This document shows positions 9,539-32,048 of a stretch of DNA of 32,048 nucleotides, one piece after another. Where the stretch lies: the NCBI GenBank assembly GCA_016838885.1, contig JAEKNW010000322.1:1-32048 (forward strand), written 5' to 3'. Position numbers and translations under genes: made by a program. How positions within the stretch are numbered: position 1 is the first letter of the stretch; each line of letters begins with the position of its first letter. This DNA is from Candidatus Cloacimonadota bacterium (GTDB lineage Bacteria; Cloacimonadota; Cloacimonadia; Cloacimonadales; JAFGVF01). The notes under the pieces are model-generated. The model worked only from the letters and a program-made list of their open reading frames with translations. It was not told where the DNA came from and ran no database searches.

Positions 9539-9731
9539 AACCCGAATGATGCAGTAGAACTTTAGTAATACTTCGCTAAAGCTACGTATCACAGGCGAAG
9601 AGTGCAGCTTCTTTTAGCAAAATAACTTACAGAATTCGAACGCATATAATATATGTTCGGGAGAATTATGGAAGTTACTTTTGCAAAAGAATATAGTGCT
9701 AATCTCAAAGATCTACTGCATTATTTGGGAT
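9539..9731 (+). repeat. Palindromic repeat element, copy B (full length, carrying an insertion)
   Basis: Full copy from AACCCGAATGATGCAG to CTGCATTATTTGGGAT. The outer 25 bases of the two ends are near-perfect inverted repeats. The arms continue inwards (TTCTTTTAGCAAAA opposite TTTTGCAAAAGAA) to an AT-rich apex with TATAAT. It is longer than copy D because about 30 extra bases sit in the left arm. In the upper stem it has C9637-G9663 where other copies have T-A, which preserves pairing. It occupies the space between the divergent operons 198-9471 and 9972-12328. Confidence 0.9.
9566..9600 (+). repeat. Short hairpin insert nested in copy B
   Basis: Copies D and E run directly from the terminal arm into GAAGAGTGC. 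Copy B instead has about 30 additional bases with the inverted ends CTTCGC (9571-9576) and GCGAAG (9595-9600). It looks like a second, smaller hairpin repeat inserted into the larger element; the exact borders are uncertain. Confidence 0.6.
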
Positions 9732-19361: not shown

Positions 19362-19430
19362 AACCTGAATGATGCAGTAAAACTTTGATGAAGAGTGCTA
19401 TTCGCAAAGGTCTAATGCATTATTTGGGTT
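19362..19430 (+). repeat. Short palindromic element, copy C (69 bp, hairpin top deleted)
   Basis: It begins AACCTGAATGATGCAG and ends AATGCATTATTTGGGTT, the same two terminal arms as the full elements. The left arm runs only to GAAGAGTGCTAT, then jumps straight to TCGCAAAGGTCTA of the right arm. About 95 central bases, both upper stem halves and the apex, are missing, so the remainder is still one hairpin. It lies in the divergent region between the msbA-like gene and the C25-family gene. Confidence 0.87.
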
Positions 19431-19471
19431 AGATAAGTGAAATAATATTGAAATTAATATGGAGGAAATAT

Positions 19472-22400
19472 ATGAAGAAGTTTTTTAATACGCTTTTAGC
19501 TTTAATGCTATTTTCCAGCATTTTTGCCCTGAGCAACGAACAGGTAAACACCTATGGGAATAGTGTAAATTATTCCTATGAACTGACGCGATCAGAGGAT
19601 TTACCAGAAATTATTAGTAGAACCTTTGCCCTGCCAGCTACTGAAGCTGAACTTTTTATAAATTCAGCTTTATTAGTAACTTATGATGAAAGTGGCAATA
19701 TTGTTGAATCAACCCGTAATATCAATGATCAGATTGTTAATCTAAGTCATTCTTTCCAAATGAGAGAAATGCATGGATTTACCGTTGATATTAATCTTAA
19801 TCAAGATTTAAGAAATGGACATCGTCAAGTATTAGAATCTCTTGATTTTGAAGTTAGAGGAACAAATTACGTTGATCCTCCTACAGAAATCTCAGAAGCA
19901 TTTTTAAGTTCTTACAAGAAACTGGCAAGCAACTTCAATGATTCATACCTCTCTTCTCTTCCCCTCTCTCGTCCTAGTATGTTGATAGTGTATCCATCTT
20001 CTCAATTAGAAAATTTCATGAACATTTTTATGAGATGGAAAAGAGCATCAGGTTTTGAAGTTGGAACATTATTAAAAGACCCATCATGGAACACTGCATC
20101 ACTAGTCAAGCAAAACATCGCTGCCTATTATGAAGTCCACAAACCTGACTATATTATGTTGATTGGTGACACTTCAGGTTCATTTGTAATTCCTACCAAC
20201 ATGTTTATTTCTCCTGATGGAACAGAAAATGATGCAGATGATAACTTTTACACTCTTTTAGAGGGTGATGAAACTGATTATTTCCCTGAAGCTTTAATTG
20301 GCCGTTTTTCAATTGGAGACGCTCTTAACTTAGCAGTTCAAGCCTCCAAGACTATCACCTACGAAAGAGATCCTGATATTGAACCGGGAGCTGATAATGA
20401 ATGGATGACCAGAGCCCTAGTTGTTGCAGGAAACTATGCAGAAAATAATCTACAACCAAGTACTCCTGTCAGAATGTCTCGCTGGGTTCGTGAAAAGTTT
20501 TTAGAAAAAGGATACACTCAAGTTGATACAGTATTCTACCCACCAACATATCCAGGTACCGGAGCTATCACATCTGCAATAACAAATGGAACCCAATATA
20601 TCTCCTATCGCGGTTGGGGTGATGCTAATGGTTGGCATTATCCTCTATTCCACATGGGTGATTTGAATCAAGTATCTAACGTTAATAAATTACCGATTGT
20701 TTATTCCATCGTTTGTAACACCGGTGATTTCGCTAACTCTGTTAACCCAAGCTTTGGTGAATTCTGGATGCGCCTGGGAACAACCTCAAACCCTAAAGGA
20801 AGTGTGGCTTTTGTAGGTCCTTCAGATCTTCATACAAAAACAAAGTTCAATAACGCTATTTCCACAGGTATGTTCTATAGTTTCCTTCAAGATGACACAA
20901 GAATTTTCGGTTCTACTGTTTTGGATGGAAAAATTGAACTGTATAATAACTATCCCCTTGACAGAGAACACGGTGGATATGTTCAATTCTACTTCCATGT
21001 TTACAACATGCTAAGTGACCCTTCCCTAAAAATGTGGGTAAAGATTCCTTCAGCTATCGTAGCAACAGGTATTCCTTACTCTCTTGATGCAGGTACTAGT
21101 TACATAGAATTAGAATTTCCTGAAGAGTTAAATAATGCCATTGTTACAACCACTAAAAATCAGATAGATTATGAATACGTTAGGGTAATAAATGGTTCAG
21201 CTATTGTGCCAATCAACACCACTATTGAGGGTGATGAAGTAAAATTAACTATAACAAAAGTAAATTATAAACCCCTAAGAGCTGATATCCCAATTACTAC
21301 TGAGAATAATATCGCTATCACTAATACCGTTCTTGATAACTATCTTCAACCCGGATATAGTTCAAATATGACTATTCACCTATATAATCACGGGTCAAAC
21401 TACGAAAACGTAGTTGCTGAATTAAGTACTATCAATCCACATATTTCAATTAGTGAATTTTCTCAAACAGTTGGAAATATGAATACTGGCACTACTGCTT
21501 CAATCAACTTTAACATTGAAGTTTCTAATGAAGCTGTGTTTGGTGAAATTGCTGATTTTGAACTCTCACTTACCCCTTCTGGTAATAGTGAGAAATTTAG
21601 CAAGTATTTAACTGGTGGAAATCCTCATTATATCCTCCACAACGGAGAAATTATCCCTGGAGAAGCTAACCAAATACAAGTTACTTTCAGAAATATTGCT
21701 AGTGTAGACTTAGCCTCTGGTAATGTGCAAATTACTGCTCTACATTCAGGTGTTATAAATAATCAGATGAATTTAGAATATAGTTCAGCTGCCGTTAATA
21801 ACACTACAACCTTAACCTTCTCTCCAGAGCTTGATGCCTTGGCAACTCCAGGTGCACCTGTTCTCTTTAGATTTGATTTTACAGAATCACTTACCGGATA
21901 TGCAATTACTAAGTTTGTAATCATCCCAATTAGTGGAGCTGAACCTAGTCATCCTACCGGACCAGACACTTATGGATATTATGCTTATGGCAGTAATGAC
22001 ACATCATATTCTTCTGCTCCTGTCTATGATTGGGTAGATATCGATCCTATTGAAGGTGGTTCCGGCGCTGTTCAAATCTTAGGAGATGATGATTCCTATG
22101 TAACAGACCTACCCTTTACTTTCAGGTACTATGGACAAGACTTCGATGAAGTTACTATCTGTTCTAATGGCTGGATGAGCTTTGGATCTACTTGGTATGT
22201 TAACTTTACAAACTCAGCTATACCTTCTGATCTAGGTCCTAAGTATCAAGTTTGCCCAAATTGGGACGATTTAAAAGGCCTCCAAACTCAACAGAATGTC
22301 TTTGCTGATATGAGAATTAGCACTTATCATGATGAAGTTAATAACAGGTTTATTATTGAATGGAACGATACTTATACTCAATCCACTATTGATCAATTTG

Positions 22401-22957
22401 AGAACGCTGATTTACAGAAGTTCCAAGTTATCTTAGAACCAATTCCTAGTGAAGACGGTGATTTAATTTTCCAATACCACACTTTCTCTAATCCTTCTGC
22501 TGTAAGTAATTTTACTACTGTAGGAATCATGAACGGAGAAAGAAATGATGGTATTCAATATACTTATGCCAATATCTATCCGGAATCAGCTCAAGAAATC
22601 TCAGATGGATTTGCTATAAGGTTCACTAAAACTCCTCCAGACTCTTTTGTTAGTAACGATAATGATGCAATAGTGCCTCAATCATACTTACTTCAAAACT
22701 ACCCTAATCCTTTCAACCCTGAGACAAATATAACTTTTGCTCTTAAGGAGAAAAGCACTAATACTGAACTAGCAGTCTATAATATCAAGGGTCAGTTAGT
22801 AAAAACTCTTGTTCATGGAACTGTTGAGGCAGGAACTCATAATATCGTTTGGAATGGTTCTAATAATAAAGACCAAGCAGTTGCCTCTGGTGTATATTAC
22901 TACAAATTGAAAACTGAAAACCAAACCATTACTAAGAAAATGATTCTTATGAAATAG
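19472..22957 (+). CDS. Secreted C25 (gingipain-type) peptidase-family protein with type IX sorting domain
   Basis: This protein of about 1161 residues has a signal peptide (MKKFFNTLLALMLFSSIFALS), a pro-region, a C25 domain, beta-sandwich repeats, a nidogen-like domain (LPFTFRYYGQDFDEVTICSNGWMSFGSTW) and a FlgD-like C-terminal sorting domain (LLQNYPNPFNPETNITFAL...GVYYYKL...KKMILMK). It should be exported by Sec, pass the outer membrane by the type IX system and be surface-attached or released. The catalytic Cys is visible (YSIVCNTGDF, C415), but the usual GHG reads GWG (W382), with another His seven residues on (H389), so activity is uncertain. The frame opens at a TTG at 19448, but ATG at 19472 follows GGAGG by six bases and gives a proper signal peptide. 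It is a single-gene unit with a strong terminator downstream. Confidence 0.88.
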   Translation: MKKFFNTLLALMLFSSIFALSNEQVNTYGNSVNYSYELTRSEDLPEIISRTFALPATEAELFINSALLVTYDESGNIVESTRNINDQIVNLSHSFQMREMHGFTVDINLNQDLRNGHRQVLESLDFEVRGTNYVDPPTEISEAFLSSYKKLASNFNDSYLSSLPLSRPSMLIVYPSSQLENFMNIFMRWKRASGFEVGTLLKDPSWNTASLVKQNIAAYYEVHKPDYIMLIGDTSGSFVIPTNMFISPDGTENDADDNFYTLLEGDETDYFPEALIGRFSIGDALNLAVQASKTITYERDPDIEPGADNEWMTRALVVAGNYAENNLQPSTPVRMSRWVREKFLEKGYTQVDTVFYPPTYPGTGAITSAITNGTQYISYRGWGDANGWHYPLFHMGDLNQVSNVNKLPIVYSIVCNTGDFANSVNPSFGEFWMRLGTTSNPKGSVAFVGPSDLHTKTKFNNAISTGMFYSFLQDDTRIFGSTVLDGKIELYNNYPLDREHGGYVQFYFHVYNMLSDPSLKMWVKIPSAIVATGIPYSLDAGTSYIELEFPEELNNAIVTTTKNQIDYEYVRVINGSAIVPINTTIEGDEVKLTITKVNYKPLRADIPITTENNIAITNTVLDNYLQPGYSSNMTIHLYNHGSNYENVVAELSTINPHISISEFSQTVGNMNTGTTASINFNIEVSNEAVFGEIADFELSLTPSGNSEKFSKYLTGGNPHYILHNGEIIPGEANQIQVTFRNIASVDLASGNVQITALHSGVINNQMNLEYSSAAVNNTTTLTFSPELDALATPGAPVLFRFDFTESLTGYAITKFVIIPISGAEPSHPTGPDTYGYYAYGSNDTSYSSAPVYDWVDIDPIEGGSGAVQILGDDDSYVTDLPFTFRYYGQDFDEVTICSNGWMSFGSTWYVNFTNSAIPSDLGPKYQVCPNWDDLKGLQTQQNVFADMRISTYHDEVNNRFIIEWNDTYTQSTIDQFENADLQKFQVILEPIPSEDGDLIFQYHTFSNPSAVSNFTTVGIMNGERNDGIQYTYANIYPESAQEISDGFAIRFTKTPPDSFVSNDNDAIVPQSYLLQNYPNPFNPETNITFALKEKSTNTELAVYNIKGQLVKTLVHGTVEAGTHNIVWNGSNNKDQAVASGVYYYKLKTENQTITKKMILMK

Positions 22958-23120: not shown

Positions 23121-23225
23121 CTCTCTCTCAAGTAGAGTGGGTCTTAGAAAAAAAGTAATAGAAGTATCTTTGAAGTATGCCATGTTTACAACAGATACAG
23201 GGCTGTAAAAACACACCCTTCTACC

Positions 23226-23383
23226 AGCTGCAGAGGCAGCAACATCTTTGTAGATAAGAGATGCCAAACCATTTTCTAAGCTCCAGAGGAGCGACATCTT
23301 TGTAGATAAGAGATGCCAAACCATTATCTTAGCTGCAGAGGCAGCGACATCTTTGTAGACCAGAAAACCTAACCCATCACTAA
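23226..23383. repeat. Three tandem 52-53-base repeats with a small stem-loop each
   Basis: Units start at about 23226, 23279 and 23331. Each opens with a hairpin (GCTGC-AGAG-GCAGC, GCTCC-AGA-GGAGC, GCTGC-AGAG-GCAGC) followed by (G/A)ACATCTTTGTAGA. Units 1 and 2 continue TAAGAGATGCCAAACCATT, where CATCT and AGATG form a second small stem; unit 3 diverges after TAGA. The hairpin base pair that differs in unit 2 changes on both sides. Confidence 0.85.
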
Positions 23384-23515
23384 GCTTTATATTGTAAACA
23401 GTATAATAAGAAAACTTGTCAAAATTAAACTTTGCTCTTTATCTGAAAGCAGACTAAATCCCACATTTTTCTAAGTGCCTTTAATAGGCATGTCAAAAGG
23501 GTTTGCCTAGTGATG

Positions 23516-23565
23516 CCTTTAAGTATCTCGATGAATCATTGGGAATTCATCGAGATACTTAAAGG
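23516..23565. repeat. Perfect 21-bp inverted repeat with an 8-base loop
   Basis: The left arm 23516-23536 begins CCTTTAAGTATCTCG and the right arm 23545-23565 is its exact reverse complement; the loop is CATTGGGA. No T run follows on either strand, so it is not a standard terminator. Confidence 0.9.
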
Positions 23566-23708
23566 AATGACTATGGTTTCCCTAGGATTAGACTAAGGAC
23601 TACGATATCATCATTGTAAATCCTATTACAAGATAAATAGTGAAATAAATCTTATCATTAGGTATCTGTTACATCTATGTCATCAGTGTTCCATTCTTCT
23701 TCTCAATT

Positions 23709-23784
23709 AAACAAATAAACAAATAAACAAATAAACAGTTAAACAAATAAACAAATAAACAAATAAACAAATAAACAAATAAAC
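23709..23784. repeat. Octamer tandem array (AAATAAAC)
   Basis: After an initial AAAC there are three AAATAAAC units, one variant AGTTAAAC, five more AAATAAAC units, then AGTTATTT, whose TTA is the stop codon (minus strand) of the TSUP gene. The array lies just outside the reading frame and could vary in length between strains without changing the protein. Confidence 0.92.
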
Positions 23785-23786
23785 AG

Positions 23787-24557
23787 TTATTTAAACTGGT
23801 CCCAAACTACTTTAATCAAGAGTAATATCAAGACAAAGATAAAGACTGGTTTAATAAAACTATTTCCTTTCTTGACTACTAAGTATGATCCGGTTAAATT
23901 ACCTAAGATACCACATATTGCAGCTGGAATAGCAATTTCATAATTGACTTTTCCACTAGCAATAAATGTAACTACTGTAGCAAGATTAGAAGCCAAGTTA
24001 ACGACTTTGGCATTAGCATTAGCAACTACGAAATCATAACTAAGTACCGAAGTATAAATTAAGATTAGAAAGGCACCGGTTCCAGGACCAAAAAAACCGT
24101 CGTAAAAACCTATACCCAATCCGGCTATAACTGCTGTTATGAGCTTTTTTTTAAGACTGACAGTATGAGAGTTATTAATTTTCCCCAGCTTATTATTAGT
24201 GATCAAAATAATAGCAATGACAGGGAGTGCAATGATGAGCAGAATGTTTAGAAAATCTGGAGCTAGATACAAAACTGTTTTTGTTCCAAAAAAGGACCCG
24301 ATAAGAGCAAAAAAAGCACTAAACAAGGCAACTTTCGTATCGATAAGATTATTACGAAAGTATCTGATTGTTGTGAAAATAGTCCCATTAGCTGAAGAAA
24401 ACTTATTGTTTCCTAGAGCAAAATGGGGTGGTAATCCAGCTGCTAAGTAGGCTGGAATGGAGATTAATCCCCCGCCCCCAGCCATTGAGTCAATAAGACC
24501 GGCTAAGAAGATAGCCGGTAAAATAATCACCATTCCATAAGGTTGCAACATTTCCAT
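23787..24557 (-). CDS. TSUP (TauE/SafE, YfcA-like) membrane permease
   Basis: This 256-residue polytopic protein has about eight hydrophobic segments. The N-terminus ILPAIFLAGLIDSMAGGGGLISIPAYLAAGLPPHFALGNNKFSS carries the family's glycine-rich and N-K-x-S motif. The second half repeats the pattern (GIGFYDGFFGPGTGAFLILIYTSVLSYDFVVANANAKVVNLASN). Family members move sulfur-containing organic anions or sulfite across the inner membrane, but the substrate of this one cannot be told. The start lies one base after the stop of the giant outer-membrane protein gene, so it is the last gene of the ybeY-led operon. Its stop codon touches the octamer array. Confidence 0.86.
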   Translation of the reverse strand: MEMLQPYGMVIILPAIFLAGLIDSMAGGGGLISIPAYLAAGLPPHFALGNNKFSSANGTIFTTIRYFRNNLIDTKVALFSAFFALIGSFFGTKTVLYLAPDFLNILLIIALPVIAIILITNNKLGKINNSHTVSLKKKLITAVIAGLGIGFYDGFFGPGTGAFLILIYTSVLSYDFVVANANAKVVNLASNLATVVTFIASGKVNYEIAIPAAICGILGNLTGSYLVVKKGNSFIKPVFIFVLILLLIKVVWDQFK

Positions 24558-31641: not shown

Positions 31642-31694
31642 TATTTCCTCATTAAGGTGATTTTTTTTATTACTATAGATTAGTCAAGTATTTT

Positions 31695-31860
31695 ATCCCG
31701 AATGATGCAGTAGAACTTTGATGAAGAGTGCTATATTCTTTTAGCAAAATAAGTTACAGAATTTGAAGGCATATAATATATATATTCCTGAAAATTATGG
31801 AACTTACTTTTGCAAAAGAAGATAGTGCTATACGCAAAGGTCTATTGCATTATTTGGGTT
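31695..31860 (+). repeat. Palindromic repeat element, copy D (intact reference copy, 166 bp)
   Basis: It runs from ATCCCGAATGATGCAG to TTGCATTATTTGGGTT. The two halves are reverse complementary along nearly their whole length: terminal arms of about 25 bases, then CTATATTCTTTTAGC against GCAAAAGAAGATAG, then ATAAGTTAC against AACTTACTTTT, then AATTTGAAGGCATAT against ATATATTCCTGAAAATT. By eye each arm is about 80 bases with perhaps 15 to 20 mismatches or bulges. G31753 and C31803 are both swapped relative to copies A, B and E, keeping the pair. It has no open reading frame of note. Confidence 0.92.
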
Positions 31861-31899
31861 TATTGTAACCACTTAAAAGAAGTGCTAAATCTCCTCTTA

Positions 31900-32048
31900 A
31901 ACCCGAATGGTGCAGTAGAGCTTTAGAGAAGAGTGCAGATTCTTTTAGTAAAATAACTTACAGAATTTGAAGGTATATAATATATATATTCCTGAAAATT
32001 ATGGAAGTTACTTTTGCAAAAGAATATAGTGCTATTCTCAAAGATCTA
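31900..32048 (+). repeat. Palindromic repeat element, copy E (3' end cut off by the window)
   Basis: It starts AACCCGAATGGTGCAG, 39 bases after copy D and in the same orientation, and runs to AAAGATCTA at the window edge; about 17 terminal bases are missing. Its last 97 bases match window positions 1-97 with one difference (T versus C at position 23). Confidence 0.9.

Follow-up and report, generated by a model that had tools for sequence, protein, structure and literature searches.

The YPAL (RU-2) repeats of Yersinia (~168 bp) and the ERIC/IRU repeats (127 bp) resemble the element described here in being MITE-like, intergenic and present in many copies, and each folds throughout as one long stem-loop of nearly the same length as ours (PMC2229807, PMC2267715). 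Action in cis on neighbouring mRNAs has been proposed for ERIC and Correia/NEMIS repeats (PMC2229807). REPINs, found in Pseudomonas and others, are short palindromic mobile units in which, as in the present family, the hairpin carries compensatory changes; such changes on both hairpin sides have been called common (PMC3116915), and the Borrelia repeats provide another precedent for them (PMC2674063). Reports of compensatory changes in bacterial hairpin repeats come from single genomes, in which the same pattern can arise through shared descent. The family to which the present locus belongs occurs in eight genomes, and descent and selection can therefore be separated.

The repeat, its copies and their placement

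The window analysed here is a stretch of 32,048 nucleotides from the 3.34 Mb, 350-contig genome of a Candidatus Cloacimonadota bacterium, and all window coordinates refer to its plus strand. Copies of the repeat were gathered by pattern search and from sequence stretches. The aligned intact copies show a unit of ~166 bp with inverted ends CCCRAATRATGCAGTAGA; the terminal inverted repeats (TIRs) are ~18 bp long and start with CCC, giving CCC...GGG ends, and the entire length forms a single imperfect hairpin. The left arm was matched ~239 times genome-wide, compared with five matches for a reversed-pattern control, and the outer end 468 times, compared with none; the latter count is about two per element because the complement of the right end falls within the two mismatches allowed. 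This genome holds ~240 copies, an approximate number since many contig ends fall in the element.

Copy D occupies 31697-31858 (covariance model match 31695-31860, 165 bits), running from CCCGAATGATGCAGTAGA to TATTTGGG as a MITE-like hairpin throughout. The assembly breaks repeatedly inside the element, and both ends of the window are therefore truncated copies: copy A (1-113) is cut off by the contig start and copy E (31900-32048) by the contig end. Copy B (9539-9731) is full length and has an additional module of ~28 bp in its 5' arm. A small additional palindromic module in one arm was seen in copy B, at 9566-9600, and also at loci L142 and L143 of a related genome (G019; e.g. CCCGATGCATATCGGG); the presence of such modules in some copies indicates that the unit tolerates nested hairpins. 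A short version of ~70 bp, which shares the ends of the unit and lacks the inner hairpin, lies at 19362-19430, just upstream of a large Peptidase C25 protein (19448-22957) that also has FlgD-like and type IX sorting domains; a protein of this make-up suggests that the genome belongs to the FCB group. The window contains other repeats as well: an 8-bp repeat array, (CAAATAAA)n, at 23696-23799, and, at 23212-23377 and 23508-23573, an imperfect tandem repeat of 52 bp and close to it a distinct inverted repeat of 29 bp (93% complementary, 8-bp loop), which gave a weak model hit only.

Copy D is flanked by TTTAT on the left (31692-31696) and again on the right (31859-31863). Exact 5-bp direct repeats of this kind flank 38 of 55 copies in this genome (mean 14.5 and maximum 25 in 5000 shuffles) and 40 of 56 copies in other genomes (mean 11.0, maximum 20, likewise in 5000 shuffles). 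The flanking pairs are AT-rich and of TTWAA type, and include TTTAT/TTTAT, TATTA/TATTA, ATAAT/ATAAT and TTGAA/TTGAA; variants such as these show that they are duplications of the target (TSDs) and not extensions of the inverted repeat. The element is thus short and multi-copy, has TIRs and flanking TSDs, and is far too short for a transposase gene, which are the features of bacterial MITEs. The site is most likely occupied by one copy of a MITE-like mobile element, non-autonomous and of DDE type.

Of 65 copies in 362 kb surveyed, 86% of which is coding according to predicted ORFs, 61 were intergenic. This placement is compatible with a function at the resident site, whereby transcribed copies would act in cis on the processing, stability or termination of neighbouring mRNAs, and so are the strong predicted RNA fold of copies with flanks (about -65 to -92 kcal/mol) and the ERIC and Correia/NEMIS precedent. 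The orientation of flanking genes speaks against it, being effectively random (21 same and 28 opposite on the 5' side, 26 and 25 on the 3' side), and a cis-regulatory orientation of the copies was rejected for lack of any such bias. Copies D and E also have no terminator-like tail. Nor did the copies contain a recognisable promoter, and an Rfam search returned nothing at the gathering score, only sub-threshold look-alikes among microRNA hairpins. The repeat was also sought in viral contigs and plasmids and was not found there.

Seven further genomes from the same order (G013, G019, G044, G049, G073, G077 and G085) contain sequence homologues of the repeat. The full unit used as query found distant copies within the order, a covariance model found more, and homology was confirmed with a sequence-only profile (nhmmer). 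In another genome, G032, a second family of hairpin repeats, 167 bp long, was found at loci L167, L171, L179 and L190-L192; it has the architecture and TSD type of the present family without sequence homology to it by nhmmer, and was left out of the alignment.

The paired base change in copy D

Window positions 31750-31757 in copy D read TAAGTTAC, with G at 31753, and positions 31800-31807 read GAACTTAC, with C at 31803; the two bases are opposed in the predicted hairpin fold. The matching arms of copy E (hairpin 31939-32037) read TAACTTAC and GGAAGTTAC, and the same C/G state is found in copies A and B. The contrast between copy D and copies A, B and E that the sequence-only reading had described was therefore confirmed by reading the window. 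Its argument against a simple inversion of the stem was also upheld, since the loop retains its orientation and the arms do not match an inverted sequence, and inversion was ruled out.

The swap is not peculiar to copy D. A pattern search of the same genome yielded 47 hairpins with G on the left (opposite C in 43, G in three and A in one), 45 C/G hairpins and a single C/C hairpin, so that 88 of the 93 hairpins read are paired, in two states (43 G-C and 45 C-G), and five are unpaired. As each paired state is present in dozens of copies, the swap is a subfamily marker. Subfamily I carries the TAACTTAC/GGAAGTTAC arms and subfamily II the arms TAAGTTAC/GTAGCTTAC, with outer flanks unlike those of subfamily I; further subfamilies have CTTCTAGC/GCAGAAG or AATTCGGACG/CGGGAGAATT. 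Copy D has the flanks of subfamily II, but its right arm is GGAACTTAC instead of the usual GTAGCTTAC.

The direction and manner of the change also differ from those first proposed, in which a C-G pair was turned into G-C by two substitutions at once. The swapped pair takes the form G-C or G.T in the homologous copies from G019, G044, G077 and G085, and varies in the more distant homologues from G073 and G013. Because the relatives with clear states carry G-C, copy D is ancestral-like and copies A, B and E are derived; judged from these related sequences, G-C is the older state of the pair and C-G the derived one. Copies with G.G survive at C2:4350, C32:17516 and C80:15619, and parsimony gives the order G-C > G.G > C-G. 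Simultaneous change is therefore unsupported, and the surviving G.G copies suggest that the change was stepwise.

Maintenance of pairing and the timing of selection

A covariation test, by which the sequence-only reading had proposed to check its claim, was written for the purpose along the lines of R-scape (Fitch substitutions on a tree from FastTree, redistributed over columns; G statistic with APC correction). Within this genome (44 units) none of 70 pairs reached E<0.05, the swapped pair giving E=0.17, and within-genome covariation was accordingly dropped as sole proof. The absence of any significant pair given the tree, like the absence of any branch in this genome with a compensated double change, is what would be expected from plain descent, in which the subfamilies differ at both positions by chance and the hairpin is a relic of an ancestral palindrome. 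The summed covariation in the same genome is at odds with it: at 76.5, it exceeded all 200 tree nulls (maximum 61.3).

The comparison between genomes weighs more heavily against plain descent. When 14 sequences from four genomes were compared, pairing was found in 92.9% of cells, 24 of 70 pairs had changed on both sides (7-9 in slid structures), and the covariation score was 0.300, compared with 0.057-0.103 with slid partners. Among 84 sequences from all eight genomes there were 30 branch events of compensated double change, compared with a mean of 2.4 and a maximum of 11 in 5000 re-paired controls, and the summed covariation was 886, compared with a tree-null maximum of 267. Two of the 70 pairs were individually significant (E<0.05) with 84 sequences and none in the one-set test, the number being so small because few lineages were sampled. 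Plain descent is largely refuted at the level of the family and is regarded as very improbable, and the data support the preservation of the hairpin as a whole, beyond one pair, by matched changes across genomes. The proposed test was thus negative within the genome and positive, in sum, across eight. The argument that paired changes indicate maintained pairing is supported family-wide; it does not hold for the lone swap, which is common to dozens of copies by descent and so cannot carry the inference.

The time at which pairing is constrained was sought by comparing the branches of the tree. On terminal branches, where changes are mostly post-insertion, paired and unpaired columns changed equally (2.38 changes per column in each). 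On internal branches there were 1.61 changes per paired column and 2.96 per unpaired column, a comparison that is rough in that there are only 26 unpaired columns, among them mismatches and loop positions. The contrast was significant (Fisher p=0.0016; p=0.017 in this genome alone). Statistically, then, constraint on the stems is seen in lineages with several descendant copies and is lacking in single copies after insertion. Pairing seems to be selected while the element propagates.

This restriction of constraint to propagating lineages argues against both continual hairpin-templated repair and a function at the resident site. The latter does not fit the equal rates of post-insertion change in paired and unpaired columns, and with the random gene orientation it is considered quite improbable. 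Hairpin-templated copying (quasipalindrome correction), the other cause that had been offered for the paired changes, would have replication rewrite one arm from the other, so that pairs change jointly without selection. It predicts both paired changes and long near-palindromes, and the subfamilies do differ on both sides at several pairs (alignment columns 59/111, 70/100, 74/96 and 47/123). However, it does not predict constraint confined to propagating lineages; mismatched copies (G.G, C.C, G.A) persist, and many fixed mismatches and bulges remain. Moreover, as no branch in this genome has a compensated double change, the 127 private stem changes counted there include no compensated pair, which disfavours ongoing repair of this kind. 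Hairpin-templated copying is therefore improbable, and selection on structure, the alternative cause in the sequence-only reading, fits better.

The explanation preferred for these observations, which is considered moderately probable, is that the repeat is a MITE with TIRs and 5-bp TSDs, mobilised by an IS1380-type transposase, that the G-C and C-G states mark subfamilies, and that pairing is under purifying selection during amplification. The old G-C pair would have changed to C-G, probably via G.G, in the master lineage of copies A, B and E, and copy D would have retained the old state. The folded form may be needed for amplification, or may spare the element during it, and pairing would thereby come under purifying selection. 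The structure is apparently selected during spread and ignored after landing, and it thereby becomes testable why the hairpin extends over the full length of so many bacterial MITEs.

A refinement of this explanation is that selection acts on the single-stranded top strand, as RNA or as one DNA strand, and therefore permits G.U but not A.C. Transitions were counted with ancestral ties resolved at random, direction-free, and calibrated on re-paired columns. On internal branches, 57 transitions between Watson-Crick and G.U pairs were found and 17 between Watson-Crick and A.C pairs (direction-free, with structures from either strand), a G.U fraction of 0.75, compared with 0.60 in re-paired controls (p=0.012). 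The re-paired value reflects a top strand richer in G than in C, which already sets a baseline of about 1.5 to 1. The two transition classes were balanced (38 to 36), and strand mutation bias is therefore no explanation; the top strand was also the more stable as RNA in all 84 copies. Against this, a ratio just as extreme, 51 to 11, arose in one slid control, the excess was not significant in this genome alone (p=0.23) and was absent on terminal branches (p=0.26), and the copies have no recognised internal promoter. An earlier count of 39:11 (p=9e-5) was discarded, as alphabetical resolution of ancestral ties favours G.U. The evidence for strand-specific, RNA-like selection on the element is suggestive, and the refinement is possible, if on the unlikely side. 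More doubtful is the broader proposal that amplification of this DDE-type MITE requires a folded form of one particular strand, either an RNA or one of the two DNA strands; the hairpin would be selected in multiplying lineages, with G.U tolerated and A.C not, and resident copies would decay freely. If true, the role of the long hairpin in MITE propagation would exceed recognition of the ends by a transposase.

Mobilisation and relation to known elements

The ends of IS1380-family elements begin with CC, and TSDs are 4-5 bp across the family. The present element has 5-bp TSDs and CC-starting ends, as is the case for elements derived from IS1380. A complete insertion sequence of this family is present at L222 in G032 (NCBIfam equivalog score 214 bits, cut-off 180), and its TIRs, CCTAACCTGAGCGATT and CCTAAACTGAGCGATT, match the ends of that genome's own 167-bp hairpin repeats. 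In G044, an IS1380-like gene adjoins a CCCATTTAATGCCTTAGA end that resembles the end of the present family; the match in G044 is weak (14/18). Searches of the genome studied here, with PF13701 and the L222 transposase as queries, found no IS1380-type transposase. By analogy with these systems, the best inference is that a transposase of the IS1380 family moves the element in trans.

IS1380-family insertion sequences thus share CC ends and a 5-bp target duplication with the element (IS1247, DR 5; PMC3281130), and differ from it in encoding a transposase, which the element lacks. The YPAL/RU-2 and ERIC/IRU repeats belong to another lineage and are set apart from the element here by their published descriptions: many repeats of the YPAL/ERIC type have a TA dinucleotide motif at their ends (PMC2229807), whereas the present element has 5-bp TTWAA-type TSDs and CCC ends. 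REPINs consist of two inverted REP sequences and are associated with a RAYT, in contrast to the 166-bp unit with TIRs and 5-bp TSDs found here. REPINs are not known to have 5-bp TSDs of this kind, and the presence of these duplications in the flanking sequence argues against a REP/REPIN identity of the element. The family is a newly found one among the long-hairpin MITEs and REPIN-like repeats already known.
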